33,029 nt of DNA from NCBI GenBank assembly GCA_003194525.1, contig NBIV01000492.1, forward strand, positions 1 to 33,029, written 5' to 3'. Positions 5,096 to 28,900 of the stretch are shown here, one piece after another (the first letter of the stretch is position 1; every line of letters begins with the position of its first letter). The position numbers and the translations under genes were made by a program. Source of the DNA: Gracilariopsis chorda (lineage: Eukaryota > Rhodophyta > Florideophyceae > Gracilariales > Gracilariaceae). A model generated the notes under the pieces. The model had not been told where the DNA came from, did not search any database, and saw only the letters and a program-made list of their open reading frames with translations.

Positions 5096-5933
5096 TCTGG
5101 GCACGGGTTGAAGCAAGAACCGAGCGGAGGATTGGGAACGAGATGGGGAAGGAAAACAGCAGAGCACAACGGCTCAGGGCCAGCGCGGGCCAGCGCGGGC
5201 TCCTGTCGGACTAGAAGATCTCGACACCGCGCTCTTCTGCAGCAAGACGTCGGAGAGAGGCGATGCAAAGAAGCGGCGGCGTTGAAGCGAGACGGTGATG
5301 GAGGAAAAGTGCGCCAAAAAGGCCGGGGCTGTGGAAACTTCGGAAAGTTTCCACTCTGACTTGTTCAGGCAGATGCCGTTGGTACGACGGTACAGTAACT
5401 GTACAAAATTGGTAAACTACCGACGGTAGCGTTCCTGGAGTAGGAACCTATTTCGCTGCATCTTCTGTGCTTTGGCGCTATGGATCAACGCTCCCCGCGA
5501 AAAGTAGGGGTGATCGGCTACCACGAGCTACTGCGGCTACTAGAAATGTTAATCCAAACTTCGAAATGCGAGATTCGGCTGCCGTTCTGCTCTTCACGGC
5601 GCATGCGCACAGCTCCACTGCGCAGTGACGTGATGGCGCAGCACTTCTGTTGTCGGTCATCGTTTCGGTTCGGATGCTGTGCTCCGCCTCGCGGGCCGTT
5701 GCTAACCCTTTCACACTTCCGCTCCGTCCGCTGCCCACCGTCTCCCCAAGTCGCCAGCATTCGTCACTACAACGTCTTTCTTCTGGTCCATGTCGTCTTC
5801 TGCCCATGACTTGCGGCCCTTTTCACTCCAGCACCCGCCTTTATTGACCTCCCAGAAGCCTCCGCCACTTTTCTGCCTCCCCCTTCTCTTGCGCTCTGCA
5901 TCCCTCTGAAACACACAATCCACCACTTTCAGT
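5096..5933. promoter_or_regulatory. Divergent intergenic region between the DDB1-like and BLTP1-like loci, copy A
   Basis: The two start codons face away from each other across 838 bp, so this stretch probably holds both promoters. It contains a direct repeat CCAGCGCGGG (two units near 5180-5200), a cluster of four perfect palindromes at 5331-5447, and pyrimidine-rich DNA just before the plus-strand ATG, ending TTTCAG directly before TATGGG. That end resembles a 3' splice site and could mark an intron in the 5' leader. Open frames on both strands at 5478-5809 look incidental: they overlap each other and match nothing I know. Confidence 0.5.
5331..5447. repeat. Cluster of four perfect palindromes, copy A
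   Basis: Seen directly. At 5331-5354, arms GTGGAAACTT and AAGTTTCCAC flank the loop CGGA. At 5390-5404 lies GTACAGTAACTGTAC. At 5417-5429 lies CTACCGACGGTAG. At 5431-5447, arms GTTCCT and AGGAAC flank a five-base loop. All four lie within 117 bases between two divergent genes and are identical in copy B. They could be binding sites for dimeric proteins, structured leader RNA or a nucleosome-free promoter element; the sequence alone does not decide. Confidence 0.85.
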
Positions 5934-6001
5934 ATGGGCGCCGAAACGGCGTCCATGTCTGCGTCCGCAGACAACTCTTCTCTTTCTCTTTCATTCCGCT
6001 C

Positions 6002-7630
6002 GTGCTTGCCTTTGTGCTATGGATTATCATCGTTGCCATTATCCTCCCTCGCTTCTTGGGTCGCATCGTGTCCTTCTTCATCAATCGCGCGCGAGGCAAC
6101 ACACTTCGGATCGTTGTACATTCGATTTACATCTACCCGTTTGCTGGTCACGCCGTTGCTCATTCAGTGCGCTACACGGTGCCAAACGGTACCATTGCGG
6201 TAAAGCAGTTAATACTCCAGATACTATGGTGGCGAAAATCACCCAGAGTCAACTTCAACCAACTTCTAACCGTCGAGCAACCAGCTACGCTCGATCGCGT
6301 GGCGCACGCCCAACAAGAAATTGAGAAGGAAAACGCCGCCTTCTTTCTTAAACGTCCGTTGTATCGCTTGAGAAGATGGTGGCGTCGAGTCACCGCTTCT
6401 CCGAATCAAGATGTGTCCGATGAACCCACCCCTCTTATCTCCGTCGTTTGCGTCGGCCTTCGTACTCGCATGGTTAACTATCAATCCAACTACAACCTTG
6501 TTAAGCGCGTACTCCACATGTCTGGAAATGAGTCTACACTTGACAGCCTTGTCAATTACGGTGTGCGATCGAGAGACACTCCTAACCCTGATTCCGACGC
6601 TACTGTCCCCGCCCGTTCCAGTTCGTCTTCAAGGCCTGACGAATCATCCTCTGCCTCGTCGTTTTCGTCTGTACAATCAGTGGATGAGAAGCCTTTTGTG
6701 GAGCGCCTCCTCGAGCGTACGTCGTTAAGAATCACGCACGGTGCCTTTTATTTTTGCGACATGAGTGAGTCCCCTCTCGTTCGAATCTCGGTCAAGTCAG
6801 CAAAGTTACGCTATATGTACGGTGCACCGGCATGTTCTATAGATAAGTGCCGAAAACGCATTCGCATGCGGACATCTGGTCTGAAAATCTCCGTTTCTGA
6901 TGAAACCTCTGTGAAGAGTGTCACTGAAACGTCTAATGCGACAAGAGGCTCGGCACAGAACCTTAATGGTACCGAACCCCTCGTGAAAAAGGAGGATACT
7001 ACGAACCGCTTGATACAGCGCGTTTTAGATCACGGGTATAGAGGTATTAGTGAATCCCTGTCTGAAACAGGCACAGTTCGCGAACACTCGCATAAGCAGT
7101 CGGTAGACCAAAATCCTCCGCGGACCGGGAACAGACGAATTCCGCTACCCACATTCCAGAAGAAGGGATGGCGATTTAAACCAACTGTCCGGCGAACTAG
7201 ACCGTTACCATGCTCTGAGGTACTGAAAGCTGAAACGGCCATCATTGACTACGTATTTGACGAACCGGGTGTCGAATCTGCTCGTCCAGAAGAAGTGGTA
7301 GGACGAGATGATCATAATGGGGAACAAACAAGCATGGATGTGCGTGAGGATTCAAATTCCAATACGCCGCCAGTGTGCCGTGTGTCAGTGTTGCCGAGAG
7401 GTACGTCGCTTTCGTACAATGCACAAGCGAAAGCAGACATTGAGAAGGTTGTTGAAAGGCTTCAACCGCCGTTTTACGATCTAGATCCACTGGAAAAGAG
7501 ACTATACACCAAAGAAGGTAAACGGGAAGCAACCGGGATTCAGATTGCCATTGACGCCTCTCCGAAGATTTCGAAAGAGAATCAACTACCTTTGATTGCT
7601 ATACCATTTGATGCGAGGGAAAACACGTAG
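6002..7630 (+). CDS. N-terminal block of the BLTP1/Csf1-like protein, copy A
   Basis: This open block of 542 codons starts at a GTG within the membrane helix. The real start is probably the ATG at 5934, which needs a one-base frame change or a tiny intron near 5950-5985. Residues 1-25 form one hydrophobic helix. The next 120 residues hold the family-like strand region and PLISVVCVGLRTRMVNYQSNYN. A serine-rich stretch follows (SSSSSRPDESSSASSFSS-type, about residues 205-225), then a second strand-rich part (RISVKSAKLRYMYGAP) and a charged linker. The block ends at TAG 7628-7630, after which the same frame stays open with similar composition. Copy B carries at least six small indels that break this block, so copy A is the better template. 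Confidence 0.65.
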   Translation: MLAFVLWIIIVAIILPRFLGRIVSFFINRARGNTLRIVVHSIYIYPFAGHAVAHSVRYTVPNGTIAVKQLILQILWWRKSPRVNFNQLLTVEQPATLDRVAHAQQEIEKENAAFFLKRPLYRLRRWWRRVTASPNQDVSDEPTPLISVVCVGLRTRMVNYQSNYNLVKRVLHMSGNESTLDSLVNYGVRSRDTPNPDSDATVPARSSSSSRPDESSSASSFSSVQSVDEKPFVERLLERTSLRITHGAFYFCDMSESPLVRISVKSAKLRYMYGAPACSIDKCRKRIRMRTSGLKISVSDETSVKSVTETSNATRGSAQNLNGTEPLVKKEDTTNRLIQRVLDHGYRGISESLSETGTVREHSHKQSVDQNPPRTGNRRIPLPTFQKKGWRFKPTVRRTRPLPCSEVLKAETAIIDYVFDEPGVESARPEEVVGRDDHNGEQTSMDVREDSNSNTPPVCRVSVLPRGTSLSYNAQAKADIEKVVERLQPPFYDLDPLEKRLYTKEGKREATGIQIAIDASPKISKENQLPLIAIPFDARENT

Positions 7631-7720
7631 AAGGCTCTTAAAATTACCGGCATCAGACAGTGGAGTTCGTCAGACAAGAATGGAAAAAAAGGAGAACGGG
7701 ACAAGGAGCCATGCTTTCCT

Positions 7721-8311
7721 ATGCCAAGCAAGTTGCTGTTACATGCCAAAAAGATTTCGCTTCGAGCAGAAATACCCTACGAATATGGTGCGTCTCAGAA
7801 AACAGTTATAACCATGAAAGATATGGAAGCTCGAGTGGAAGGAGTAGTTAATATGCCAATCAGCCGTTCACAGCTGACTACCATCACAAAAGTAGTGCAC
7901 ACTCCAAGGATCTGGAATGAAGTACATGCTGTTTCCTTCGATATTGTTATGTCGCAAATGGAGCTTAACTACTTTCCCGACACCCTTCGCATCATTGATG
8001 ATATTGGCGCCTACTCTAGAGAACATAGTAAGAAACCGGAAAACGTTCGTTACTTTGTTCCTTACCGGGAAATTGTAAAGATTCGTGCCGAAAAAGACTA
8101 CTGTGTGGTTCTAGCATGCAGCCACGATAACACGTGGAAGGACATCCAGAACGTGTTTCAGATCAGTATAGACAGATCAAAGTGTGCGGAACGAGTTGCG
8201 CGTTTACCCCTACCCCAGTTGCAGCATCGTCATATCGTGATGATTCTTCCGAGACTCATTGGACGTTATCGTTTCCAAATACAACAGGAAAGATCTCTGT
8301 CGACGTACTAG
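7721..8311 (+). CDS. Second block of the BLTP1/Csf1-like locus, copy A
   Basis: This 196-codon block is in the same frame as 6002-7630. The 90 bases between them contain only the single stop TAG at 7628, so translation would resume without a frame change. It contains a strand-rich segment (HAVSFDIVMSQMELNYFPDTLRIIDDIG) and a cysteine-containing stretch near VVLACSHDNTWKDIQ, which fit a repeating beta-groove protein but are not diagnostic. It is identical in length in copy B (31507-32097). Past about 8260 the adjacent frame (to TAG 8392) looks equally coding, so a frameshift or splice boundary probably lies near 8250-8300. Confidence 0.5.
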   Translation: MPSKLLLHAKKISLRAEIPYEYGASQKTVITMKDMEARVEGVVNMPISRSQLTTITKVVHTPRIWNEVHAVSFDIVMSQMELNYFPDTLRIIDDIGAYSREHSKKPENVRYFVPYREIVKIRAEKDYCVVLACSHDNTWKDIQNVFQISIDRSKCAERVARLPLPQLQHRHIVMILPRLIGRYRFQIQQERSLSTY

Positions 8312-8503
8312 GGACCCCAGGTTCTCTGAGAAAAAGTCAAAATAAGTCTGAAACCACAGAAGGCACTGATACCAGTGACGACTTTCTCCGATAGGGTCGC
8401 ACCTCGTCCCTTGCGCAGCGTATGCTGAGTCAGCTTGAAACGCTTTTAACTCAACACGGAAGCACCTCTCTCCAACCTATCTCGCAGAAAAAAAACCACG
8501 GTT

Positions 8504-9160
8504 GTGGAGCGTGTGTTCTTGGCGGCTGGGGAAACGTCTGAACTGTCTCGAAAGCTGATTACAAGCGAGAGTAAGTTCTCCTTGGATAGTCCAAGGCATG
8601 CCTTTCTCCACGCTGCAAACAAGAGTGAAATGCACTTCAACACGTCCAGCTTGGTTGTAGTCTTGAACCCGCATCACACGACACATGTTTTAAACCTAAG
8701 TAAGAACTACAGTTCTGGAAAACCTCACACAATATCTTCAAGAGAAAACACCAAGACGGATGATGTACGCAAAGAAATCGCGACTCGCGTATTGGGTAAA
8801 GGCCGGTATCGAAACTTGTCTGAATGTCTTACTATGGGTTTGAGCACGGGTCTAATGACACGTTCAGCAGCATCTGGGAACGCTGAAGATGATACATTTG
8901 AACTGATTATATGTATTGATTCACTTCTTGTGCGCATATACGATCTCCCACACTCGATTTCTCCATTCTCAACTGCATCTGACCGTGTCTGCTCACTTGA
9001 ATGCCACAAATCTGAAGGTGCTTTGCGCTCAAATCTGTTGACTTCAGAATTAACATGGCATCCAGATAGAAGGAATGACCAGATATCAATTTTTAGTGGC
9101 TACCTTCCATATCCTGCATCATCTGTGAAGGCAACTGACGCTCTTTGCTTCCTGAAATGA
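8504..9160 (+). CDS. Third block of the BLTP1/Csf1-like locus, copy A
   Basis: This 218-codon block is in the same frame as the previous ones. The first residues read VERVFLAAGETSELSRKLI. In copy B the preceding A-run is followed by two extra bases (ACACC instead of ACC), which joins this block smoothly to the upstream frame reading GRTSSLAQRMLSQLETLL. Copy A has therefore probably lost two bases near 8495. The block includes SSLVVVLNPHHTTHVLNLS and FELIICIDSLLVRIYDLPHS, compatible with beta-rich groove repeats. It ends at TGA 9158; the reading moves to another frame at about 9145 in both copies, so that shift is shared. Confidence 0.5.
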   Translation: MERVFLAAGETSELSRKLITSESKFSLDSPRHAFLHAANKSEMHFNTSSLVVVLNPHHTTHVLNLSKNYSSGKPHTISSRENTKTDDVRKEIATRVLGKGRYRNLSECLTMGLSTGLMTRSAASGNAEDDTFELIICIDSLLVRIYDLPHSISPFSTASDRVCSLECHKSEGALRSNLLTSELTWHPDRRNDQISIFSGYLPYPASSVKATDALCFLK

Positions 9161-10443
9161 CCATCGATCTAATAACGCCGTGGGGTGACAAACTTGCACC
9201 ATGGGTAGATGAGGCTACCATGAAGGCTCAGGTCTCGCATGCGAGTGAGTTAGGCATAGAACATCCATCAAACCTCTTCGAAAAAACAGGAGTTATGAGA
9301 AAAGTGGGTGAGATCAAAAGAATCTCGTTGGATATTCTTCTGGAGTCCACACCGTCTATCTGGTCTTCCAGTATCTCATCGCTACAACAGGGGCACGTGA
9401 TTTCACTTTTCGAGAAACTACGACATTATGCACTGCAATGGGCAGGGCATGGAGTACATTCAATTCGTGCGAGAGCATTGGATAAAACAGGGGGTACAGA
9501 TATTGACGAAGAGTGGTGGTGTTTTCTATCCAACGCAAACAAAGCATCAATTTTGGATACAAAATCAACAGCGGGCGAGAACCAAAGTATTCGTACCGAG
9601 AACATATATGTATCTCTTTTCAAGCCTCTTGACGACAATTTGTCTCCAGAATGCTTAGAAGTTGCAAACGACATTATAATGAGAATGCATGAAAGTTTTT
9701 CATACTACAAAAAGAATCCCCGAATCAGTGAAAAGAATCGAAGGGTGAATCAATATGTAGATGAAATACTAGACTTATGGGAGCGATACGAATCTATAGA
9801 GCTTCATCAAATAGAGAGCTTCGCTCTTCCAGATTACCTCACTCGGAATACAAGAGGGTTCGAGAGTGAGCAATTGAATTTGAAGTTACTCCCACCTGCA
9901 GTTATGGGCTTGACAGATCTTGAAGGATTCTCCAATGTTCGCACAAGCGGGAGTACCTTGATCATTTCTGTTCCGTTCGGTTTGCATTTTATGCATTCAA
10001 CACAGTTCGAAATTGAACCGGGTCAGTCGACAAAGAGTTTGAAGCCATCACGCCCCTCACCATTCTACTCACCAACTGACAATGTGTTCGCGAAGAACAT
10101 CTCACACGCTTCTATTCCCGCCATTTCTGTTCTATGTCACAGGCACGGCTTGGACGCAACTGACGTTGGTCTGCTAAAAGACCTCATCATCATCTTTCTA
10201 GATCGGCTTTCTGCCAGAGACCGAAGCCATTACTCACAGGACAACATGTGGTACCGTCCGAGAGCAGAACGCCGTGTTTTAGTTGGCAAACTTTCGTCTA
10301 TCCAACTCGGGTCTCAGTTCTCTTTCAATGTATTCCGCGTTTGGAAAGGTGGCGTCAGTCTTTATGCTACTGATGAGAACCTTAGCTTTGAGATATACAT
10401 TATTAACAAAGCTTCGGACGGGAGTGATGGAAAACATATGTGA
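9145..10443 (+). CDS. Fourth block of the BLTP1/Csf1-like locus
   Basis: This 432-codon open block is in a different frame from its neighbours and overlaps the end of the previous block by 16 bases. It contains DLITPWGDKLAPWVDEA near its start, a helix-rich middle (KNRRVNQYVDEILDLWERYESIELHQIE) and later strand-rich parts (STLIISVPFGLHF; RRVLVGKLSSIQLGSQFSFNVF). I know no domain for it beyond its position in the locus. It ends at tandem stops TGATAA (10441-10446). A pyrimidine-rich sequence ending TTTTAGCAG (10473-10483) follows directly, so an intron of about 30-45 bases may separate it from the next block, but I found no donor site that keeps the frame well. Only the first 100 bases are present in copy B. 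Confidence 0.5.
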   Translation: MLPEMTIDLITPWGDKLAPWVDEATMKAQVSHASELGIEHPSNLFEKTGVMRKVGEIKRISLDILLESTPSIWSSSISSLQQGHVISLFEKLRHYALQWAGHGVHSIRARALDKTGGTDIDEEWWCFLSNANKASILDTKSTAGENQSIRTENIYVSLFKPLDDNLSPECLEVANDIIMRMHESFSYYKKNPRISEKNRRVNQYVDEILDLWERYESIELHQIESFALPDYLTRNTRGFESEQLNLKLLPPAVMGLTDLEGFSNVRTSGSTLIISVPFGLHFMHSTQFEIEPGQSTKSLKPSRPSPFYSPTDNVFAKNISHASIPAISVLCHRHGLDATDVGLLKDLIIIFLDRLSARDRSHYSQDNMWYRPRAERRVLVGKLSSIQLGSQFSFNVFRVWKGGVSLYATDENLSFEIYIINKASDGSDGKHM

Positions 10444-11599: not shown

Positions 11600-12702
11600 G
11601 GGGTAAGTTTCCCAGATCGAAAGGGAAGAGAACAAACTGTATCGTCTAAGAACGGACGCCGATCACAGCTTGTTCGTCCTGGTGGGCATGGGCACAGAAA
11701 GCGACTTTGTCTTGTTCTCAAACCCAAACCCATAATTTTCCCAAAGACTTTTCCTACCGTCAGTATGTTTCTATCATTCAAGAAGGTTGAGATGCAATAC
11801 TTCCGGGGAGGAGGTACGTCCAGAAGGAAGCAAGTAAGAACAAAGAACTTGAAGGATGCCGGTGTGCTTTTCGTTATGAATCAAACCCGGTTGACTCTGA
11901 AGTCTTCTGCAAATGGAATGTGTTCAGTAGTTCTGACAGCATCTTCATCGGAATTAAGGTCTTCCAATGACCCCAAATGTGTGCTGGCCGGGGCGATTTC
12001 TCGATTTGGAATGACAGCAAGCATTGTGCAAGGTCCGTTTCCTCACAGTTTACCGAAGCTTATCGCATCTACTCGGATTTCTAAGTTCATAGCTACTCTT
12101 CATGCACGAGACTTGCAAGCAGTCCTTAAGTTTCGTGAAGACTTTAAGGAAGACCTGAAGGGCGTTCTGGCTGTGTTTGTAACAACAAAGCATTCAGTCT
12201 CCGAAATGGCTCGTGCAACCAGATTGATGACACCTACATCAGTTGGTCTGAAAGCTCTATTCTCAACACTGGCTGTTGATTTGCTCTTCGAGGATTCCAG
12301 AGTCGTTCTAACAGGGTTCCATCCGAAGGATACTTCGATGAGTGTAACATACTTGCTTGACGGATTATTCTTCTCAGCTGTCACGTCTGAGGCAGACAGC
12401 GCTGCTTTACTACTTGGATTGAGACTATACGGCCACGGACTGCGTTTGGCCGCACAGACAGGGGGCGCCGCAGAAGTGCTGCGACTCCCACGCTTGTATG
12501 CTCGTGGAGCTGAGTGGAGAGAATCGATTGATTTAGATGCTGGTGATGTTTTATTTCATTATTAGGAACAGAGGGAGAGAGTTAACCTGCTTCATTTTAT
12601 TACATTCGTACGCAATTCACTGCAATATTGGGCTCTACAACTGGCCAACCCTTCACAGACATTGGCAGTTGAGCTCTTGTGGCATACTCGTAGCATATTC
12701 TG
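11600..12702 (+). CDS. Last blocks of the BLTP1/Csf1-like locus
   Basis: This is the same frame as the previous block. From 11600 it reads GVSFPDRKGREQTV and continues to an ATG at 11765 and a strand-rich domain (GMTASIVQGPFPHSLPKL; KFIATLHARDLQAVLKFREDFKEDL; RVVLTGFHPKDTSMSVTYLLDGLFFSAV). A TAG at 12563-12565 interrupts it, but the frame then stays open for 45 more codons (NLLHFITFVRNSLQYWALQLA) to TGA near 12702. The helical tail after a single stop repeats the pattern seen elsewhere in the locus. The transposon-like element begins just downstream, about 40 bases later, so the 3' end of the gene may have been cut by that insertion. Confidence 0.45.
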
Positions 12703-12744
12703 ATAGGTTGTAGTTCTGTTTAAAAATAGTTACATGCAACGAAT

Positions 12745-12902
12745 GGCGTACACCCACTCCTGCTACAAAACTAACTGCACTGGCGTACCGCCCAAAGGCG
12801 TACGCCACTTGCCGATTTCCTCAATACTACCATAATGCTCATTCTGTCACATTGGTACGCCATTTATTGTAAGATAGCACTATGTTTGCACATTGGTACG
12901 CC
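12745..12902. repeat. Left cluster of GGCGTAC/GTACGCC motifs
   Basis: Exact heptamers at 12745-12751, 12782-12788, 12797-12806 (a full palindrome GGCGTACGCC), 12855-12861 and 12896-12902. The last two sit in the same longer context, CATTGGTACGCCAT or ATTGGTACGCCAT. The orientation flips within the cluster. Confidence 0.85.
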
Positions 12903-12916
12903 ATCTGCTGCACTAA

Positions 12917-13309
12917 AATTTTGCTAGGGATACACCAGCGCCGCTGGGAAATACCCACACCCCTCTTGGGGAAAAAGGCGGCCAAGCTGCAGTCGAAGCT
13001 TTAAGCCCTGGCTTGCAAGCACCGGAAACGCCTCCCGTCTTTGACGGAATCAAAGCCCCCGCTACGGGGAATAATTTGCGCCAACCCCCGCACCGCTGCG
13101 GCGAAGAACCGAGAAACTCGGGAATAACGCGCGCCATCGCACGCTCGAAACCGGTCGTACCGGACGCTGCTCCTCCTCACGGAGATGGTGCACTGCGCTC
13201 AGCGGCAATGCCCCTGAAAAGGGTGTCATCGGCACCTGCCCAGAACCCCCCAAAGGGGAATTTTGACCAAAATACCGGTGTACCGGAGTTAGCCCCAGGC
13301 AACCCGTGA
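12917..13309 (+). CDS. Upstream part of the chromodomain ORF, no ATG seen
   Basis: The frame is open from 12917 to TGA 13307-13309 and is the same frame as the chromodomain ORF. Only 33 bases separate the TGA from the ATG at 13343, and they contain no other stop. The peptide is rich in Pro, Gly and Ala (PLGN, PLGEKGG, APATGNN, PKGNF) and looks disordered, like a degenerate low-complexity gag-type or linker region. There is no recognisable domain and no ATG start. It may be the decayed 5' part of the same protein, or its codons may simply stay open because of high GC content. The dispersed mini-hairpins described separately dictate much of the peptide composition here. Confidence 0.35.
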   Translation, partial: NFARDTPAPLGNTHTPLGEKGGQAAVEALSPGLQAPETPPVFDGIKAPATGNNLRQPPHRCGEEPRNSGITRAIARSKPVVPDAAPPHGDGALRSAAMPLKRVSSAPAQNPPKGNFDQNTGVPELAPGNP

Positions 13310-14065
13310 GTAGCCGAGGACACCACGGCATCGCCGGAACGTATGGTGCAAAGCGCTCGTGCGCCTGCCAGGGAGGCGGTTTGCCACCCAATCACCGTGT
13401 CGCACGGGACCCCCCAGGGGATTGTGGAAATGCCGATCCCGCAGGAGCGGTCATCTTCCCGCAAACTCGCGGTTCGTGAGCTCAACCGCGAAGGCGGAGC
13501 CCAAGTCCCCCGCCGACTGGCGGTTCGCCCGGCCTACCGTGAAGACGGGAACAACGACACCCCAATGGGGAATGACTTGCCGGGGAAAACCGTGACACCA
13601 CACACACTCTTGAGGGATATTTTCCCGCATGAGCAGCGGCCACTAGGACAGCGCACGGCAACGTCGGAGTTATCGCCGAACACCCTGCTAAGGGACATTA
13701 TACCGCACAGCGGGCAGCCCTCGCAAGGGAGTACAACCACCACCCGGCACGGCAGGCAGGTCTACGAACGAGAGTTCGTAGTAGACCGACTTGTCGGACA
13801 CACCTGGAACCAGGATGGTATTCTACAATACCGCGTCCGCTGGTACGGGTACGACCCCAGTGGGGATACGTGGGAGCCAATTGAACACCTCCCACGGTCG
13901 CAGGTTCTGCGATACCACCGTCAGACGGGAACTGCAGACCCAGCCACGCTGGTTAATGCCCAAGTTGGGTAACGTTGCCACGCGAGCGGAGAGCGAAAGG
14001 AAAGGATAACAAGGCAAAGTCCGTCGAAGACGGGGAACTCAACCGAGAAGCACCGTTCTAAACGG
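12960..14065. repeat. Dispersed family of micro-hairpins (5-bp arms, 3-4 base loops)
   Basis: Seen directly. Perfect small inverted repeats occur at 12960-12971 (CCCC/GGGG), 13035-13047 (CCGTC/GACGG), 13057-13069 (CCCCG/CGGGG), 13093-13101, 13109-13121 (CCGAG/CTCGG), 13151-13163 (CCGGT/ACCGG), 13173-13184, 13248-13258, 13275-13286, 13412-13420, 13468-13490 (7-bp arms), 13510-13523 (CCGCC/GGCGG), 13537-13548, 13560-13570, 13918-13928, 14021-14033 and 14053-14065. Most loops are 3 bases, and the right arm is often followed by GAA or GGAA. They fall in different reading frames, so amino-acid repetition does not explain them. They are absent from the flanking DNA at this density. Confidence 0.8.
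13343..13972 (+). CDS. Chromodomain protein, probably retroelement-derived
   Basis: This 209-residue ORF starts with ATG. Residues 1-138 are polar and low-complexity, with a near-repeat (TLLRDIFPHEQ and TLLRDIIPHSG, about residues 89-120). Residues 141-193 form a chromodomain: YEREFVVDRLVGH, then YRVRWYGY and DTWEPIEHL. The aromatic-cage positions are present (F145, W167, Y170), as is the TWEP motif. Such domains bind methylated histone tails and, at the C-terminus of chromovirus integrases, direct insertion to heterochromatin. Here no integrase precedes it. It could be a fragment of a Ty3/gypsy polyprotein or a protein encoded by the surrounding GGCGTAC element. Confidence 0.8.
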   Translation: MVQSARAPAREAVCHPITVSHGTPQGIVEMPIPQERSSSRKLAVRELNREGGAQVPRRLAVRPAYREDGNNDTPMGNDLPGKTVTPHTLLRDIFPHEQRPLGQRTATSELSPNTLLRDIIPHSGQPSQGSTTTTRHGRQVYEREFVVDRLVGHTWNQDGILQYRVRWYGYDPSGDTWEPIEHLPRSQVLRYHRQTGTADPATLVNAQVG

Positions 14066-14217
14066 GAAAGTTTATTCAGGGGAGCAGCTAGCTCCCCACA
14101 ATACTACACTACACTAACTGGCATAGCCAGGGAAAGAAGAACCAGGAAACTGGACCAGAGGTTTCACTCACCCCCATCGCCCTAGGAAACTTATAGTGCT
14201 ACAAATATGTGATTCAT

Positions 14218-14436
14218 GGCGTACATTTTTGTGCAATAAAAGGCGTACAAATCATGACTAGAGTGTACGCCATTGGTAGGATAGCTACAAATGGCGTTCT
14301 ATGTTCTATCTATTTTGGTGTATTTTTGGTACGGCAACCGTATTATTGCAACGAGTGTGCTGCAATATATTTCAGATGGCGTACGAAAGGCGTATTTAGC
14401 GAAATTTGTACGCCTAGTGTTCGCAATGGGTACGCC
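14218..14436. repeat. Right cluster of GGCGTAC/GTACGCC motifs
   Basis: Exact heptamers at 14218-14224, 14242-14248, 14265-14271, 14378-14384, 14408-14414 and 14430-14436, with a near-match at 14389. GTACGCCATTGGTAGG at 14265 echoes the left-cluster context. Both orientations occur. Confidence 0.85.
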
Positions 14437-14481
14437 TGATGTTCGCCAAGCAGTGAAAATTCGACATTTCAAAACTAACTG

Positions 14482-17351
14482 AAGGCGTTTGAAAACGTAG
14501 CCAGTTTGTAAGCAATTCGTCAGTTTTTGTCAACTAGTTAGATTCCTAACATTAAGCATTGAGCCACAAAGCTGGCACCGAAACGCTACGCTTTTGCTAT
14601 CTTCTTGCGCTCTGTGGACGACGGTTATGCTTCATGTTTATACATTTATTGTGTCATATAGCGTACAGACTGGTTCCTCAACCGTATTGTTAAACAGAAA
14701 TATAAACCTCTAAAATAACGGCCCAGGCCTCTCCGACTAAATCATTGACTCGAAAGCGACCCCTATAAGATTGAGTGAGTCTGTGTACGTTTGTGTGCCC
14801 AACGTGCCAGTAGCTCCAAAACTTCAGTGGTGTAGTCAAAGTAATCGTCTGCTAGGATGTCTGGAAAGAACAAGTCTGTCCATGTACTTTGCTTTCCACC
14901 CCTCGCGAATGAAAACCAGAATCAGTAATGTCACAACCCAAAGGCTCGCTGTTGCGCTCAAAGCCTACGTCCCTGTCGTTCTAGTAGTGTGCCGGTTGTT
15001 GCAGTAGTGATTGATACAGAAGGAATGGTACGTGCATGAGGCAATGTGTGTATCCGCATCCCAGCTCAGTAGAGCATGCTGGAGGTAGGCAGTTGCTTGA
15101 GCTTGAGCTTTACCCTATTGTGTGCGCAAGAAAACATGACGGGCGGAATGTATTGGGTGCAATGGAGACGGTAGATCTATATCAATTGAGAAGATAGCAT
15201 GAATGCCACATTTCTGAGACACCAGAGTTTGCGAGTGGTCAAGGTGACCGGTGCGCTGCGTGAGAAAGAATAATGGTAGGATGCAACACATTCATCATAT
15301 TTCCAGGATGATGTTGCCCATACATCAACAATGACAAAATGCGATAGAATACGGCAAAATGCCCGAATGTACATTATGCTAACGAAAGAATTTGAGCATC
15401 TTAAGCGAGATCCACGAATCCTTTGCCATGGAGTAATCAATAACGGTGATCTAAAGCGCCTGCCGCCTTTCAAAGTCGATGGAATGACCTGAAAATCCAA
15501 ACAGGTGCATAATATTCGCTCAGATACGGTTTCCGCACTCACACCTGATCAGATCAAGAAGCGTGTTCTTATGCTTTTCAAGAAGACTTGGGGTCTGGTA
15601 ATAGACAACTCGACCGCTTCCGCTGTTTGATTGACAATTAACTTGCGTGTGAATGCAAACTCGGGCATAGTAGTCAAGGAACTCGTCCAGTGCAACGGCT
15701 GTGGAACGCATTTCTGTCGCTGTAATTTCTTCTTCACACACTGTGAACCTAGCGCACAAGCAGACTCGACAAATCACACAGCTTGCTATTACGCCCAAAT
15801 CTTATGCTCGAGTCCTTTTGCGTGCCTTTCAGTGGTCCAATTAGGGATTGGAACAGCTTCCCGTTCACTGAACGTAAATGTGTATATCTTGATTCTTTGG
15901 ATGCTTCGCCTTGAACCTAGTCTTCCGCCAAAGGCTTACGATACCACAACGAGCTATCAATTAATTTTAGGTCTCAGAGTTGAAAGGCTGCACACCACCT
16001 GCAGATAGATATACGACCTGAGAAGAAGTCTCGATCCACTCATTGGTGTGTGTCAAGAGAGATAGGCTGAGATTGGCCAAGTGGTGAGGCAAGAGATACC
16101 AATTGAATGCAATGTGAGTTACAAATGCAAAGAGACGGCGGCAGAAAGGCAATAAGCATTCATAAACTCCACGTCGCGGTTTTCCTATGAATTGGTGACG
16201 GGATGCAGCAAGAGTTAATGCATTAACGTAGTGGTACAGAATGCGGCAGAAGGGTTGACAGAATACCGTGACGCGCAGGAAGACGCAGAAATAAGTAAGA
16301 CAGTGGGGACCCACTTTGTAAAAGCTGCAAATGCCATGGTACGGCTTCAAGCAACAAGCTGATGCCACGAAGTCTGAGAAAGGTGGAAACAATAATGCAT
16401 CAAAGCAGAGAAAGACAGAGAAGAATAAGAATGCAAGTGCGGCATGGCGTTCTCGTGGAAGCAACATAGCTCTCTGAGCTCCTGAGCTTGAGTAAGAATG
16501 CTTTCATATTGAAAGTGGCTAGTATACAGGTAGATGAAGGCCAAAAGTTGCGCTTAGACAGAGTGCTTGATGGTGGGATGGGGAAGTCTGTCGTGGAACG
16601 AAAGAGCTGGGAGACAGCACTTGATAAACCGAACCGTTCATTCATACGGATGCCACCTCCCTTCAATTATGCACCACGTGTACAGCGGGAGCCACGTTTG
16701 TAACGCATACATGCTGTTACTTTTGCATCATTGTAATGGTACTGTGAGTGGTATTTAAGGAGATAGGCACTTTCTTCCGAACGGGGTAGTAACGGCACGA
16801 TTGAAACGATCGTAGTGAACAGGGAAGGTATAAACGCGCGGTGTGCAGTAATCCTGAGGTGTTTCTCTTCACTAAGAAAAATATATCTCTCAGATGCAAG
16901 AAACACATTCTGCAACGAGGAACTGATCTAGATATGACTCCAGTTCCGGAGACATGGTTCACATGCTTGCCTGGTTGTATTCATCATGATGCTGATCCTC
17001 TCTTCTTCATGCCTGATTTGTTCTGGCAAGTTCTACTTCTCACTGCCTCATGGGGTTGACAAAAGAATTCAATGGTTACCACATATCACGCTTTCAATCA
17101 GAGGGCACTACTCCTAGCCGTAATTCTACGCATCTTTTCCTCACAACCCTGCCCACTCGATTCCTATGTTGCAGCCGTTCTACCCAGGCTTAAAGGATTC
17201 TGTTTCTTATATTAAAGTATAATAGGAGAACCAAGTCTGACTCAAGGTGCAGCCATGCCCCACTATTATAGCATGCAGTGTTGGACTCAAGACAAATTTA
17301 TCGTGATCCAAGGCAGGGATGTTCTCTTACTATGATCGGTTTCATAATCAT
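14482..17351. other. 2.9-kb stretch without an intact gene
   Basis: Only short open frames, none recognised, apart from the transposase relic at 15901-16039. Two minus-strand frames (15177-15542 and 15967-16467) share a loose FCRIL-x-H-[FY]-V motif with each other and might be further decayed transposase pieces, but the similarity is too weak to call. No tRNA or other RNA gene was seen. CACTAC at about 17105 and TAGTG-type words near 14980-15010 were checked as possible transposon ends, without a matching partner on the right side. Confidence 0.5.
15901..16039 (-). pseudogene. Relic of a Tnp2-type transposase
   Basis: The DNA aligns with 19275-19460 of the intact transposase gene (minus strand). 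Shared words include CTTGAACCTA, GAGCTATC, TTGAAAGGCTGCACACCA and CGACCTGAGAAGAAGTC. About 70 bases present in the intact gene (about 19373-19442) are missing. The translated motif is LSAGGVQPF where the intact gene has LSADGVQPF, so the presumed catalytic Asp is Gly. The remaining sequence is too diverged and short to be functional. It shows that a related element sat here earlier. Confidence 0.75.
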
Positions 17352-20303
17352 CTAAACTTCAATTCCTTTCAAAGAACATCGCACAACGTCTTTGTTTGAA
17401 TCTAAGTACGTCATTACACCATCCGTGTCTTGCATTTCATCGACGAAGTATGTCCGCACGGAATGCCGCTTCCCAACACAAGGATAGGTCGTCTGTACTA
17501 CAGCAATTGGATGACTTATCACCTCAACCTCCTCTACAGTCCGGCATGCAAAAAGGTAGTCACTATCAATCCTGGAGCGGGAATAAACCTGACCTTGGTT
17601 ACCTCTTCTCAAACCTCGAGTGGCCCAGTCAGCTACTACTAGCTCGTGTGAAGCTGTGCATACTTCGTGGCTCAAGAAGCAAAACGTTTTTCCGTAGTAC
17701 ACATCAACCTCATTCGAACGGTTGCAAGCAAACATTCCAGAAAAGTAACATGTCGATCTATGCTCACTATATTGAGAGAATCCGTGATATGTCCATGGGC
17801 GCAGTATCATCGTCTTGCTGTCCCGCAAACGACCCCAAACGCGTATTGAGTCATTTTTGCGTACAAGGTTACCAGCTTCAGCTCGTGATATGCCCAATTT
17901 CGAAATATAATAACGGACAAGGAGATCTCTTAAACCCGGTATGTTAGTTTTTCCTTCGTTGGTTATGGATGTATGACATGAAGGCCCTAGGAGAGAGAAT
18001 TGCGTTTGTCCACTTTCGGTACTACTTGGTGAAGAAATACTTGTGAGGGGAGAGATCCAATTGTTGTTGACATCAGTTTCTTCAATATGGGGGATCTGAA
18101 TTCCATATCGAAGGCTATACAAAGAGGCTGCAACATGATACTTGATCTTCTCCCTCGCCGATTGGGCAAAGAGATGCTTTGCATGCGTGATTCTGTTCAC
18201 GTATCCGACAAAGTTTTCAGTCGTCCATTGCCCTAGAAGCGAGATAGGACCACAATCTCTAATATTCTGAGCAAGGTGTAGTAACAAATGATATACATAC
18301 TTGCAGAGATGAACTCGGTCGGGTGTTTTCTTGTAATACAGATCCACAAAATGTCTGTAGAATCTCTCGGCTAAAGACCCAATCTGATCGACATCTTCTT
18401 CACTGTGTCTCCACTGGCACGTGAGCCGTACAAGCTGAACGAAGTACTTCCATCCACTCAATACTTGGGCGGGTACCCAGCCGTCCAGCACTACAAGACT
18501 TGTTGAGGTCGTGAATAACTTCCATTCGGATGCTTTCCAGAGTCCTCTTTTGTCTAGACCTCGTGGCGCCCGGCAATAGTATGAGCCAAACCCCTTCCTA
18601 CAAGCTCTCAGATTATCGTTCACAGCTTCATACACCTTTCGCGAGGATAGGTATGCAAGTTCTACATGGCGACCAGAGTCATTGCACCAAATTGAAACAA
18701 CATCTTTAGCAACATTCTCAAACAACAAGTGCATGATATCGATAGGAAAAGATCGGAATGCACGCATGGTATTCAGTTCTAATAGAGGTGTAGGGTGGGT
18801 GGAAGAGAATCCGTTTTGTTTGAGATGATATTCAAGTTCTCGTTTTGGAATTTTGAACTCCATCTCTTTGAACCAGTTATAGGCCTCCATGACCTCACTA
18901 TGAGTTCGGAGAGGAAGGCATGAAGGATCCCATAAAACTCGATCTACAATCCTTCTCTTTGCGTTAGATTGGTCATGGCCGGAAAACACCGGTGGAAAGT
19001 AACAATGGTGAACATGAATGCCTCTGATGAGGCAAAAACGACAAGGAACAAGCCCATTAGGGCCTTTCAGATGAGTAAGCTTTTTCATGGCAGGTAAGTC
19101 TGCCAAAGCAAACAGCAGATGCACTCTAACTATCCTCCGTTCGCCGTTCCACAGTTTTGCATTCCGTCCATACAGCGATAAACTCTGAATCTCCGTGATA
19201 AATGGACGGAGAAAGCTCGTGAGGTCCTTTGGTTCATTAGGGCCCGGGATGAGAAGCAAAGGCAGTAGTCGTCTTGCCTTGAACCTAATACTCGGCGGAA
19301 GGTTTAGAATAACACAAAGAGCTATCCAGTAGGTGTAGTTATCCAACTTGAAAGGCTGCACACCATCCGCAGATAGAGCAAGAAATATATCATACTTCAC
19401 CATCTCTAGACCTCCTCTCTGTGAAACAATATCCTGGAAAATGCGACCTGAGAAGAAGTCGCTATACACTCCCTCCTCCTTTTCAAGGACACCACGCCAA
19501 AAATAACTGCAAAGGAGCGGCCCCTCCACAGGACTCTGAAGCAACATCTCGATACGTTCCCACACCGGGATGTACTCAAACAGACCAGCTGCGGTACTGA
19601 AATTGTCGTTACAGTATGAGCATTCTAGAACCGATCCATCTGATGTTTTGTCCAGAGCTTTGTGGAATTTGGTACAAGCTGGGTGCTCTGTTGTACATAG
19701 TCCAGAATTACGCAGTAGTGCTTTGCGTACACCCGAGAATGACTTATATGGGCGCTGAGAGCTATCAGATACCGAGATGTCTTTGATAAGATCAGTCATG
19801 AAGGCATCGTCTGCTGAGTGCTTGATGCCAAGTCCAAGCACATTAGCGTGCTTTTCCATGAACAGAGCAAACTTTCTATCCAAGCACATAACATGTCTGT
19901 TGCTTCCAAGCGAATCAGAAGAAACTTCGTTCGCTGTGATTTGAACATGATCGATGACTCGTTCCGCTACGGGTATGAGACAAAGAGAATTCTCTGACTC
20001 CGATCTGGTTGAGAGAGTGATAGATACGGTACTATTCGATTGAGTCGAGTTGGATGAGTACGCTTCCCCATTTTCGATATCGTTTTCATCTACTTCACTA
20101 GCGTGAGCGTACAGAGAAGAGAGCTGCAAGGAACTAGTGATGGCAGAAGGAAGTGGCAAAAAGATGTCTTCATCATGTTCATTTCCATCAATTCTGTTGT
20201 GTGCCACTGCCCGATGTCGCATTGCAGTTTCTCTAGAAACCAACTTTCCTTTCCCACATCGACATTTGTAGTCGGGATGGCAAATGTATCCTAACATACC
20301 CAT
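17352..20303 (-). CDS. Tnp2-type (CACTA-like) transposase, intact
   Basis: This uninterrupted 983-residue protein catalyses cut-and-paste movement of its own element in the nucleus. Features in order: an N-terminal zinc finger with C14, C16, H30 and H35 (CRCGKGK...MRHRAVAH); the Tnp2 core with LALSADGVQPFK and presumed catalytic D313; LPPSIRFKARRLLPLLLIPGP; a second CxxC-like motif (CRFCLIRGIHVHHCYFPP); FPIDIMHLLFENV with D522 and E529; and a C-terminal part with QWTTENFVGYVNRITHAKHLF. Length and motif order fit transposases of the CACTA/CMC class. It is divergently paired with the 571-aa ORF at 21151, as expected of a two-gene transposon. No stop or frameshift was seen, unlike the DDB1 and BLTP1 loci, which suggests recent arrival or recent activity. 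Confidence 0.9.
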   Translation of the reverse strand: MGMLGYICHPDYKCRCGKGKLVSRETAMRHRAVAHNRIDGNEHDEDIFLPLPSAITSSLQLSSLYAHASEVDENDIENGEAYSSNSTQSNSTVSITLSTRSESENSLCLIPVAERVIDHVQITANEVSSDSLGSNRHVMCLDRKFALFMEKHANVLGLGIKHSADDAFMTDLIKDISVSDSSQRPYKSFSGVRKALLRNSGLCTTEHPACTKFHKALDKTSDGSVLECSYCNDNFSTAAGLFEYIPVWERIEMLLQSPVEGPLLCSYFWRGVLEKEEGVYSDFFSGRIFQDIVSQRGGLEMVKYDIFLALSADGVQPFKLDNYTYWIALCVILNLPPSIRFKARRLLPLLLIPGPNEPKDLTSFLRPFITEIQSLSLYGRNAKLWNGERRIVRVHLLFALADLPAMKKLTHLKGPNGLVPCRFCLIRGIHVHHCYFPPVFSGHDQSNAKRRIVDRVLWDPSCLPLRTHSEVMEAYNWFKEMEFKIPKRELEYHLKQNGFSSTHPTPLLELNTMRAFRSFPIDIMHLLFENVAKDVVSIWCNDSGRHVELAYLSSRKVYEAVNDNLRACRKGFGSYYCRAPRGLDKRGLWKASEWKLFTTSTSLVVLDGWVPAQVLSGWKYFVQLVRLTCQWRHSEEDVDQIGSLAERFYRHFVDLYYKKTPDRVHLCKYVYHLLLHLAQNIRDCGPISLLGQWTTENFVGYVNRITHAKHLFAQSAREKIKYHVAASLYSLRYGIQIPHIEETDVNNNWISPLTSISSPSSTESGQTQFSLLGPSCHTSITNEGKTNIPGLRDLLVRYYISKLGISRAEAGNLVRKNDSIRVWGRLRDSKTMILRPWTYHGFSQYSEHRSTCYFSGMFACNRSNEVDVYYGKTFCFLSHEVCTASHELVVADWATRGLRRGNQGQVYSRSRIDSDYLFACRTVEEVEVISHPIAVVQTTYPCVGKRHSVRTYFVDEMQDTDGVMTYLDSNKDVVRCSLKGIEV

Positions 20304-21150
20304 CTCTAGAGTGATTGACTAACAAATTCGGAGTATCTTGCACAGAGATTCCTTGGGATGCAATATGGTAACGGATTCGAAAGAAGGGATCGGATGTGTC
20401 GAGCAACATGAAAACAGCCTAACAGATATGACGTCAGAACTAGTGAAAAGGGATTCCTCAAAGTTGCGAAGATGAAAAAAAACTTGTTTCCTTGAAAAAG
20501 TATCCTTCTTCACTCCGACCGTTTCGGGTTGTGCGAAAGAAAATGTGACAGACAGTCATACAGAAAGTATCACGATATCGTCACGTCACGTTTCTCTTCA
20601 AAGTATTTTGTAGCACCCAACTCCCACTCTGCGCTCTATCTTTCCTTTCTTTGATCGTTTTGTGTTGGTGCTCGTGTTGTGTTGGTGTTTTGTTTCAAAC
20701 TTTAGCAAGGATTGCCATCTCCTGGCCAAAAAAAGGAGCTCTTTTGATGCATACAGGTGGTAACGATCTGGGCGGCAACGTGACTTTCCCCATCAATTCT
20801 GTCAGGCGTTGTCGCCACACGGTAACACGCCACGAGCAATCTTAAGTACGCATTCCATGGCCATGCATGCAGATGAACAAAAGTACAATTCACTTCAATG
20901 GTGAATATCGTGGCATGTTTGCGCTTGGAGTCAGTGAACGCGACGGGTATTTCATATTGCACCACCAAACGCAACGTCACAAATGTGCGCACAGCGTGTT
21001 TGGGGATATGTGTCCTCAAGAAAACACCAGATTCAAACCCTTTATCGCTTGTTCATGTGCTGGGTTCTCTTCTCTATCCCAACGAAGTGCGCAGATACTG
21101 GAGCACTCACGAAGGACTCACCATCTCAATCTTGCACATCAGTACTCATC
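20304..21150. promoter_or_regulatory. Divergent promoter region of the transposon gene pair
   Basis: These 847 bases separate the start codons of the Tnp2 gene (minus) and the 571-aa ORF (plus). They include a GT-rich tract with repeats of GTGTTGGTG near 20660-20690 and pyrimidine-rich runs at 20640-20655. A frame from 20983 is open into the downstream ORF, but its peptide looks non-coding and the ATG at 21151 is a better start. No clear TATA box was identified. Confidence 0.4.
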
Positions 21151-22866
21151 ATGGTGATGATAGCGAACAAAATCGTTTTCCCGGCCCCTAGTTCCCGAAC
21201 GTCGGCGAAGGACTCGAGCTCGTTTAGCATTGGAAATGAAATCAAGAGGGCAATCGAGTGTCACAACGAAAGCCTTCGAGAAAACGAAGCAGATTATCGT
21301 GTGGAGATCCCATTCAAGAGTACTGGCAAGTATTCTGTAGCTGTCCTGGGCACTGTTGGTCGCTTGCTGCGCTCATCTGATGTATTTTCACAGCATGTAG
21401 GCAGAAGAAGCTTTCGTTCCATCAAACAGGCTACAGGCCAGAACATGTTCCAGAAGGCTGTGAACGGGCTGATTCGCGATATCAACGAGAAGCACAAACT
21501 TCTTACGTACACCGAAGGTGATTGGGGAGCAATGAAATCCATTGTGCAGAAGCTTCGCAATGAGGTCGCGCACAGAAATAGCAAGAAGAGGGCAAAATTA
21601 ATGAAAAAGAGGCAGCTCGCTCGGCGTCCAAGGAATGATTCAGAAGCTATGTTGACAAACAAGCAGACCTTTGAAGAACACAGAGTTCAAAAGCAGCGTT
21701 TTGTTTCCCGGACTCCAAATCGTACAGAGCCAAGTACGAATGTGCCTCGTTCTCGTCATGATGAACATTCCCGGGTCAAGAGAAACCGAAAGCTCAGCCA
21801 AAAGGTCGGGAGGAGTGATCACAGAATCCTTAACAACATTTGTAGTTCTGATGATTGCACTGGTCTTAGTTCGTCCAGTTCGGATGAGATTGACACGAAA
21901 AGCAAACCCACGAAGCATCGCAGCTTACGAAGGAGCCAAAAAGTGGAACGCCGTAAGGAAAGCAGAACTCCTGAAGATAGTGATGATGATATTCAACCAG
22001 TTTTCAGAACACACAAATCCTCGCTGGCCAGTGCAAGGACCAAAACGGTTAGAACTCATGCGAAGGGGAGAGAGTTACTTCATCGCTCGGATGGTGAGTT
22101 ATCTGAGAAATCTGATGACGATGATATTCATTCAAATAAGAGTCCATACAGCTCCTCCACGCTGAGGCTGAGCCCCAGACAACAAAATGGCAATGGTAAG
22201 AAAAGACTGTTACCTCAGCGCCTTGATGCAGGCCAGTGTGTGGCTGAAAGCCGTCAGACATCACATGCCTCTGATGTTGCAGTAGAACCCATTTTGAGGA
22301 CGAAGACTAAAGCTTCGTTCACGCCACTCACCAAACACCCCCAAAGGGTTAGGAAACATAGAACTCTACTTCACTGCGTAGACATTTCATCCCCTCAGGG
22401 GGGTGACGAAGTTGATGTGATCGGAAGCAAGAATACAAAGAACGTTGCGTTGACGAAAAGGAAGCAACTTGCCCTAAAACGTAAGAGGCGCGTTTTGCCT
22501 GAAAGTTCTGAAGATGTGCAGAAACAAACTCACGTCCACAAGAAGCCACGTCTCGAAACCCGTTTCGAGAATATTGACGAAGGTGTGCCAAAGGGATCTC
22601 ATACCTCTGGGTCTTTGACTGAACACACTGCACATATGGATCGTAACAGAATGCGTTCATTGGGCGAGGAAGACAGTAGCAATTGTGATCGAAAGTGCAA
22701 CGTAGTAGGTTGCAACATGCCAGGGGATGCGGCTCATAGATGCAATGTGTGCGGAAGAGCTATGCATAACCTTTGTGGTCAACGAGTGCTAGGTGCTGCT
22801 CATGTTGAAGGAAAGTTCATCTGCTCTTTTAGTTGCGTGTCGAGTGCTTTGAAGCAGATAACGTAG
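21151..22866 (+). CDS. Basic nuclear-type protein with C-terminal PHD-like zinc finger (second transposon gene)
   Basis: This 571-residue protein starts at ATG 21151 (MVMIANKIVFPAPSS); a second ATG follows at 21157. The frame is open further upstream to 20983, but that part has no protein-like composition. Residues 25-160 are mixed, probably helical (GNEIKRAIECHNESLREN; FQKAVNGLIRDINEKHKL). Residues 160-500 are strongly basic and Ser/Asp-rich with several KKR/RKR-type nuclear signals. The C-terminus has ordered Cys/His (C512, C516, C521, H529, C531, C534, H539, C542, C558, C562); C-x2-C-x4-H-x2-C is the core spacing of PHD and related treble-clef fingers. The pairing with the Tnp2 gene suggests a DNA- or chromatin-binding partner, analogous in position to TnpA of plant CACTA elements. 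That role is inference. Confidence 0.65.
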   Translation: MVMIANKIVFPAPSSRTSAKDSSSFSIGNEIKRAIECHNESLRENEADYRVEIPFKSTGKYSVAVLGTVGRLLRSSDVFSQHVGRRSFRSIKQATGQNMFQKAVNGLIRDINEKHKLLTYTEGDWGAMKSIVQKLRNEVAHRNSKKRAKLMKKRQLARRPRNDSEAMLTNKQTFEEHRVQKQRFVSRTPNRTEPSTNVPRSRHDEHSRVKRNRKLSQKVGRSDHRILNNICSSDDCTGLSSSSSDEIDTKSKPTKHRSLRRSQKVERRKESRTPEDSDDDIQPVFRTHKSSLASARTKTVRTHAKGRELLHRSDGELSEKSDDDDIHSNKSPYSSSTLRLSPRQQNGNGKKRLLPQRLDAGQCVAESRQTSHASDVAVEPILRTKTKASFTPLTKHPQRVRKHRTLLHCVDISSPQGGDEVDVIGSKNTKNVALTKRKQLALKRKRRVLPESSEDVQKQTHVHKKPRLETRFENIDEGVPKGSHTSGSLTEHTAHMDRNRMRSLGEEDSSNCDRKCNVVGCNMPGDAAHRCNVCGRAMHNLCGQRVLGAAHVEGKFICSFSCVSSALKQIT

Positions 22867-23806: not shown

Positions 23807-23884
23807 TTGAATCAAACAACATCATGACTTTGACCGAAGAGTTCATCTGCAGAAACGTTGAGAATATTATCTTGAATCAAACAA
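23807..23884. repeat. Two copies of TTGAATCAAACAA at the entry of copy B
   Basis: The 13-mer occurs at 23807-23819 and 23872-23884, 65 bases apart start to start. The first straddles base 23814, where the match to the window start begins. Because the window starts inside this word, the apparent repeat boundary is probably just the window edge. Confidence 0.75.
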
Positions 23885-28500: not shown

Positions 28501-28900
28501 GTAATCGCTTGTACTGATACGTTGCGATGCCTTCGAGTCAACAATGCTAACGCGCTCGAATATGGAATTGGACACGAAGTGGTCTTCCATATCGCCGGAG
28601 GACACGACATGACAGCGCGACTCGGCAGCATTCCATCGCAAAACGCAGAGCTTGTATTTGTCGGTGATGACGACGAGGTGATCTTGATTCTCTCGGGTCA
28701 TACGCATAAGATGCATTACGGAAGTAGTGCCATAAATCGGTAGCTCGATAGTGCAAGCAAGACCTTCTCTAGTGATGGTGTACCTGAATATAGTTGACCT
28801 TCGAGCCGATAAGGTTGCGCTGATCTGGGGCTAGAAAGCTTCCGACAGCGGTGTGCGAGACCCGCGACGGCTTATGGGCGGTTACGACGTAGTTGTACAT
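25521..28900 (-). pseudogene. DDB1: DDB1-like locus with disrupted frame, copy B
   Basis: The second copy of the DDB1-like gene starts at the ATG at 28900 (MYNYVVTAHKP). It shares with copy A every stop I checked: tandem TGA-TAG after SLHC, TAA after YTAQ, TGA and TAG after LPGIKDM, TAG after FFVEV, and TAG before VHGDPIE. Here the block 26758-27597 (279 codons) joins two segments that are split in copy A, including MAPASLPGLDED and MRISIASKNIHQ. Copy B has its own damage: a 2-base loss near 26780, a 2-base loss near 25998, a 7-base loss near 28530, a 2-base loss near 28782 and a 1-base loss near 27648. Extra bases near 25800-25835 restore some positions and break others. Confidence 0.9.

Follow-up and report, generated by a model that had tools for sequence, protein, structure and literature searches.

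Gypsy fragment and flanking transposons in the window

The window analyzed is a stretch of 33,029 nucleotides from the red alga Gracilariopsis chorda (contig NBIV01000492.1). It contains a fragment of a Ty3/gypsy chromovirus, here assigned to family A, located between the ends of two copies of a giant Tnp2-type transposon. The features are, by position and strand:

12566-12929, forward strand: end of the upstream Tnp2-type giant transposon (copy 1), with the terminus ...GCTAGGG and subterminal GGCGTAC repeats
12929-14182, forward strand: Ty3/gypsy chromovirus family A fragment, comprising the 3' part of pol, the chromodomain and the 3' region of a parent element of about 10 kb
12930-12932, forward strand: ATA, apparent target-site duplicate of transposon copy 1, whose other half is on C644 (junction L090 against the window)
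12935-14153, forward strand: array of 40 non-overlapping perfect mini-hairpins (stem of at least 4, loop of 3-5) within the gypsy fragment
13343-13972, forward strand: open frame of 209 amino acid residues, C-terminal end of the pol polyprotein (Chromo, PF00385, E 6.5e-11)
14177-14179, forward strand: TCG, apparent target-site duplicate of transposon copy 2, whose other half is on C426 (junction L084 against the window)
14180-14760, forward strand: start of the downstream Tnp2-type giant transposon (copy 2), CCCTAGG..., with subterminal GGCGTAC repeats
17352-20303, reverse strand: transposase-like ORF of 983 amino acid residues of the flanking transposon (PF02992, Transposase_21/tnp2, E 1.3e-13)

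The gypsy fragment was found in at least 40 places of its own genome (91.3 Mb), window included, with 96-100% identity; 40 matches were scored among 702 candidates, so this copy number is a lower bound. Most of the matches span exactly 12929-14182. Its place inside longer copies was located on C31, C2 (two copies) and C53, and the flanks of the fetched copies are alike, which indicates that the fragment is part of a larger element. In the C31 copy, the open frame at 13343-13972 lies in frame with an integrase-like ORF (978 amino acid residues in C31).

The end of transposon copy 1 gave 11 matches, window included, 10 of them over the full 363 bases, and its terminus is identical in all six junctions read (L084-L089). 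The start of copy 2 gave 12 matches, window included, and the five junctions read (L090-L094) show the CCCTAG start. The giant transposon has the ends CCCTAG...CTAGGG and apparent 3-bp target duplicates. The gypsy fragment is truncated on both sides by two copies of the giant transposon. As the 3-bp duplicates match, the ends of C644, C426 and the window can be joined, and 12929-14182 together with both contigs appears to be a single locus, where one gypsy copy was struck twice by the giant transposon. A preliminary description of this DNA, made from the letters alone, had the hairpins stop at GGCGTAC arms; the sharp ends are instead those of the gypsy fragment, cut by two other transposons, and the GGCGTAC repeats are a property of the flanking transposons, separate from the hairpin array.

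Positions 1-9245 and 23814-33029 of the window are 99% identical to each other, and these two window ends look like parts of two copies of one Tnp2-type transposon of about 22-23 kb. The giant transposon also carries large ORFs (e.g., 6002-7630 and 20983-22866), which gave no Pfam match.

Parent element and related families

The parent element is a Ty3/gypsy chromovirus, which we named family A. Stretches around four copies contain LTR-like direct repeats of about 806 bp in an element of about 10 kb: C31:282385-283190, on the 3' side, is 95-99% identical to the stretch at the 5' side of both C2 copies and of the C53 copy. The same repeat also matches C31:273214-274020, and two element copies abut in C31. 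The order RT, RNase H, integrase core with H2C2 and chromodomain was established by Pfam in the pol ORFs of families D (L081) and E (L080), where Pfam also detected gag; in family A, Pfam was applied to the window ORF (Chromo), and gag, RT, RNase H and integrase were assigned by likeness. The RT protein of family A is 65-78% identical to those of families B, C and D. Families B and C are about 10 kb each, and the family-B pol has its closest named relatives among the proteins of the red alga Agarophyton chilense (Gracilariaceae).

Four families each contain, toward the 3' side, a long antisense ORF of 436-774 amino acid residues:

L034:544-2370, reverse strand: antisense ORF of family A
L052:2622-3929, reverse strand: antisense ORF of family C
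L081:8413-9900, reverse strand: antisense ORF of family D
L080:7551-9872, reverse strand: antisense ORF of family E

These ORFs are mutually homologous (25-44% identity over the matched parts) and show no Pfam match. The family B stretch, which runs up to the last base of its contig, has no antisense ORF of at least 170 residues among those listed.

A CCHC zinc knuckle is not universal in the Gag of Ty3/gypsy chromoviruses. Read by eye, it is present at the end of Gag in families A, B, C, D and the L069 family, and degenerate in families E and F.

Hairpin array of family A

Hairpins were defined as perfect, with a stem of at least 4 and a loop of 3-5. Between 12960 and 14065 there are 43, against 13.7 ± 3.7 (maximum 25) in 300 dinucleotide shuffles, which bears out the density claimed in the preliminary description. 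With a stem of at least 5, there are nine hairpins with loop 3 (1.3 in shuffles) and 15 with loops of 3-5 (3.4 in shuffles). That description had reported at least 16 mini-hairpins, mostly with a 5-bp stem and a 3-base loop, in all reading frames and limited to 1.1 kb. The hairpins are real and do lie in all frames; the majority, however, have 4-bp stems, and they extend over 12935-14153 in the window and over the whole parent element of about 10 kb. Both flanks of the fragment are at background, with two hairpins in 12728-12928 (1.9 expected) and three in 14183-14460 (3.1 expected).

The long family-A copy C31:274021-283190 (9170 bp) contains 285 non-overlapping hairpins, against 94 in shuffles, about one per 30 letters along the whole element. 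Every 500-bp window across it exceeds the shuffles (z 2.9-7.5), and z drops to about 0 in the adjoining DNA, copia-like by eye. Density is even, with 28.5-33.5 per kb in each of seven regions (gag, RT-RNase H, integrase, linker, chromodomain, antisense ORF and LTR), and that of the LTR is not above that of the RT. Since the trait spans the LTR and the antisense ORF as well as the sense ORFs, it is not about translating one gene.

The excess is concentrated in a few size classes: loop 3 with stem 5 occurs 53 times against 5.3, about ten-fold above chance, and loop 4 with stem 4 occurs 82 times against 21, with hardly any excess beyond loop 5 or stem 6. Hairpins with one G-U pair show a 1.09-fold excess, against 3.19-fold for perfect ones. 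GC content is higher in the stems and lower in the loops than in chance hairpins.

The CC...GG form noted earlier is recognizable, with C at the outermost 5' position in 84-92% of hairpins of the three most frequent classes and in 61% of stem 5/loop 4. On the sense strand the flanks are rich in A, and the reported GAA tail is real on one strand: GAA stands at the right end of 53 of the 285 hairpins, whereas the mirror TTC stands at the left end of 15. This asymmetry is absent from the antisense ORF region (4 vs. 3 of 52 hairpins).

Hairpins also keep a distance from each other. In family A, gaps of 0-3 nt occur 14 times against 52.9 expected and gaps of 4-11 nt 116 times against 78; in family D the counts are 21 against 50 and 97 against 76, respectively. 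Hairpins of A and D shun spacing below 4 nt and favor 4-11 nt, which those of B and C hardly do.

Hairpin excess in synonymous codon choice

When synonymous codons were shuffled with protein and codon usage kept, the 78 hairpins of ORF1 fell to 28.1 ± 4.1, the 93 of ORF2 to 34.1 ± 4.8 and the 28 of the RT domain to 9.2. As this shuffling abolishes the excess, the excess resides in synonymous choice.

Two explanations lose nearly all their weight here. The element is GC-rich, which would suit an origin in composition, codon usage or chance; nevertheless, both dinucleotide and synonymous shuffles lie far below the observed counts, and families E and F have a GC content similar to that of the hairpin families with no excess in the RT. 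Composition, codon usage and chance as the cause are ruled out by these shuffles and retain a practically negligible probability. Equally negligible is the preliminary suggestion of self-spreading hairpin inserts of the GC-cluster type, although the hairpins are dispersed, short and tailed as such inserts would be: they lie within ungapped alignments of conserved RT codons of families A, B and C (L043, with no block, and L039, out of frame, not included), and synonymous shuffling removes the excess. For the RT, the ungapped alignment rules out presence or absence of whole hairpins as inserts.

Folding energy was predicted for the sense strand as the mean z per 120-nt window (20 shuffles each), with values of -1.31 for family A, -0.52 for B, -0.34 for C, -0.76 for D and -1.14 for E, which is poor in micro-hairpins. 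It is moderate in A and weak in B-D, and it does not track the micro-hairpin trait. Folding energy as such was rejected as the trait; its predicted value is scarcely below that of family E.

Distribution over families and relatives

In an RT survey of 32 sequences with synonymous shuffles (L059 left out), 13 sequences from families A-D show z values of 5.1-10.8 and the L069 relative 2.2, while the 18 others, which comprise families E and F, further gypsies from this genome and six foreign relatives, range from -2.0 to 1.9. Families B, C and D show the excess over nearly their whole length. The trait is weaker in the L069 family, with 67 hairpins against 37.9 over 3.7 kb.

The hairpins of the families share no common loop motif; they show base preferences at set stem positions and in the flanks, which differ by family. 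Family A has C-G outermost and family C has C-G pairs one step inward; family D has stem 4 with loop 4-5, often closed by G-C, and in families B and C loops of 5-7 occur as well. Hairpin positions are mostly unshared between families at about 70% identity, which indicates that location counts for less than density and form.

In an RT tree of 21 rows, a single change of the label accounts for the ten hairpin rows (support 75/72, 76% of 200 bootstrap trees). As the tree is rooted at the midpoint only, it is compatible both with a gain in A-D and with a loss in E, F and L053.

Seven foreign gypsies (L053-L059) show no hairpin excess in the RT (z -0.6 to 1.8). For L056, 164 hairpins were counted in the whole contig, with 103 expected (z 7.9), and 17 in its RT match, with 16.4 expected, and its excess lies outside its pol; the whole contigs of L057 and L059 reach z 2.6 and 2.4. 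These seven contigs come from bins labeled as bacterial genomes (Moorena, Calditrichota and others) and encode a eukaryote-type gypsy pol; they look like contamination there.

Some structure is also present in family E (L080), with 132 hairpins against 101 (z 3.3). Its stems of 6-7 bp number 31 against 11.7, and those of at least 8 bp nine against 1.2 expected. These longer stems are perhaps another style of RNA structure that replaces the micro-hairpins.

Mutation patterns and arm co-variation

Private and shared mutations were counted in 24 of 30 loci over columns 1-3150; the 3' third, where the sequence is unrelated, was excluded, and L001, L007, L016, L018, L021 and L030 were left out for short or unlike flanks. 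Private mutations fall evenly on stems (145/891 columns), loops (51/367), flanks (86/561) and spacers (200/1321), which argues against a host process acting at the DNA level. Changes shared by at least three copies are rarer in stems (9/891) than in loops (11/367), a modest difference (p 0.022); the comparison of stems with all non-stem columns gives p 0.11, and in a wider hairpin set (sites in at least three copies) shared changes in stems equal those in non-stems.

The preliminary description held that pairing is kept while stem sequences change, and between close relatives this is supported. In five close pairs (four of family A, one of D), base pairs with both partners changed are Watson-Crick in 64 of 117 cases within hairpins and in 751 of 1919 non-hairpin control pairs (p 0.0012, for a pool picked after the results were seen; the lowest p among the 11 single comparisons is 0.05, with none clearly below). 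Summed over nine pairs of hairpin families, the counts are 143/300 and 2084/5602, respectively. The A/C comparison shows no enrichment of compensated pairs (16/51), and in the two family-E pairs 4/9 and 2/15 are Watson-Crick. By a permutation test of kept pairs, which ignores regional rate differences, family-A lineages at 73-89% identity retain Watson-Crick pairs above permutations (e.g., 737 vs. 699 ± 3), the D pair is little above them (185 vs. 179.3 ± 3.9), and A, B and C against D keep no more than permutations do (145/148.2, 114/112.7 and 97/94.7, respectively).

These data bear on a mutational origin, by which the reverse transcriptase of the element would fold back, copy one arm from the other, and so make and perfect hairpins. 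Such an origin would account for the perfect-only character, near-perfect hairpins being hardly in excess, and for the limitation of the trait to some families; a like pattern in nematomorph mitochondria is read as active maintenance, perhaps by template switching (PMC6649704). However, template switching inverts spacers (PMC8604942), and a loop equal to the reverse complement was found in only 2 of 426 changed loops, which are one single-base difference seen from both sides. Furthermore, among hairpins with at least two changes, one-armed change was seen in 20 of 165 against 48.6 expected; private mutations create hairpins in 40 of 482 cases against 34.9 expected, with no surplus; and the LTR is no denser than the RT. 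Template-switch palindromes were rejected, as one-armed change stays below expectation and loops do not invert, and we regard the mutational origin as improbable. Because private mutations ignore stems, loops are not inverted and there is no surplus of new hairpins, selection on the replicating element is favored. Taken together, the results indicate that the replicating lineage keeps its hairpins and that in dead copies they decay without constraint.

Comparison with known systems

The RNA phages MS2 and Qbeta share several properties with the algal families. In both there are many short stem-loops spread through coding RNA (predicted in families A-D), with GC-rich stems and GC-poor loops, and the phages show an excess of perfect pairs of 2.4 and 2.5 with no special G-U excess; the scarcity of G-U pairs therefore does not speak against selection on RNA. 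They differ in density (24-31 hairpins per kb in the algal families vs. about 20 in the phages), in stems of at least 6 bp (3-4-fold excess in both phages vs. 0.7-2-fold in the algal elements, whose stems are mostly of 4-5 bp) and in the spacing rule, which is absent in the phages. Moreover, the algal host is an LTR retrotransposon, with no shared loop motif and a putative Gag partner.

With other Ty3/gypsy chromoviruses, the elements share the LTR-like direct repeats, the CCHC knuckle of gag, the RT-RNase H-integrase order and the chromodomain, and differ in the hairpin array and, for A, C, D and E, in the antisense ORF toward the 3' side. Genome-scale ordered RNA structure is structure spread over a whole RNA genome; the algal trait likewise extends across the whole RNA, but folding energy does not follow it. 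The palindromes of nematomorph mitochondria are also perfect inverted repeats in conserved protein genes, imperfect ones not being in excess, as described in PMC6649704; according to the same source they number 110 in four genomes with arms of 15-142 bp, against arms of 4-5 bp and hundreds per element in the alga.

A search of Rfam and viral contigs gave no lead. Searches of one open-access library showed no earlier description of such retrotransposon arrays.

Proposed function of the hairpins

We infer that the molecule holding all hairpins is the genomic RNA or the cDNA. At a probability of about one half, the hairpins of families A-D, and more weakly those of the L069 family, are a selected, genome-long RNA property, most likely as dispersed docking sites for Gag. 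They would act on the genomic RNA of the element while it is active, where many dispersed hairpins would serve as docking sites for a Gag that ends in a CCHC zinc knuckle, and this docking would let the RNA of the element be recognized and packed ahead of other RNA. The base preferences would give every family a recognition code of its own. The scheme resembles the dispersed packaging signals of RNA phages, with higher density and smaller hairpins; dispersed stem-loops act in the packaging of MS2 and other viruses, according to PMC6281560. Docking of Gag is pointed to by the knuckle of the hairpin families, degenerate in E and F, together with the yeast Ty3 nucleocapsid, whose zinc finger is described as critical for RNA packaging (PMC4974528). 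The preliminary description had already proposed protein-binding RNA hairpins for packaging or copying the element, and this stays the leading candidate function. The foreign L053 has a CCHC knuckle (by eye) without hairpin excess, so that the knuckle is not sufficient, and knuckle and hairpin trait may share only one evolutionary change, on the same branch. Further points that speak against docking are the absence of a common loop motif, the mostly unshared positions between families at about 70% identity, the lack of co-variation of D with A, B or C, the near-absent excess of hairpins with one G-U pair, in which MS2 and Qbeta are similar, and a predicted folding energy scarcely below that of family E. 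We more tentatively suggest that the hairpins may be a dialect of each family, repeated 200-300 times by means of synonymous codons and read by Gag to separate its own RNA from that of sister families.

The main rival to Gag docking also takes the hairpins as selected, for another purpose: local folding on both strands would block pairing among sense RNA, antisense RNA and minus-strand cDNA, or would hide the element from silencing. Perfect pairs lacking G-U can form on either strand alike, as this purpose would have it, and families A, C, D and E have homologous antisense ORFs. In Qbeta and MS2 the two strands must stay apart, and these phages carry a similar signature. Strong intramolecular structure has also been proposed to limit dsRNA formation (PMC6913131). 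Against it, family E has the antisense ORF but lacks the micro-hairpin array, the B stretch has the array but no antisense ORF in the list, the hairpin flanks are strand-asymmetric, and strand separation has no need of family-specific base preferences. We consider this purpose rather unlikely, though well ahead of the mutational origin.

Significance

The array suggests an RNA copy whose shape would help it to be bound, to be packed or to stay single-stranded. Should this hold, an LTR retrotransposon would have a whole-genome RNA architecture of the kind known from RNA phages, under heavy protein constraint, and synonymous sites over 10 kb would be able to carry a dense structural signal. Related families of one host, some rich and some poor in hairpins, would then offer a natural comparison, which bears on the old question of how retroelements recognize their own RNA.
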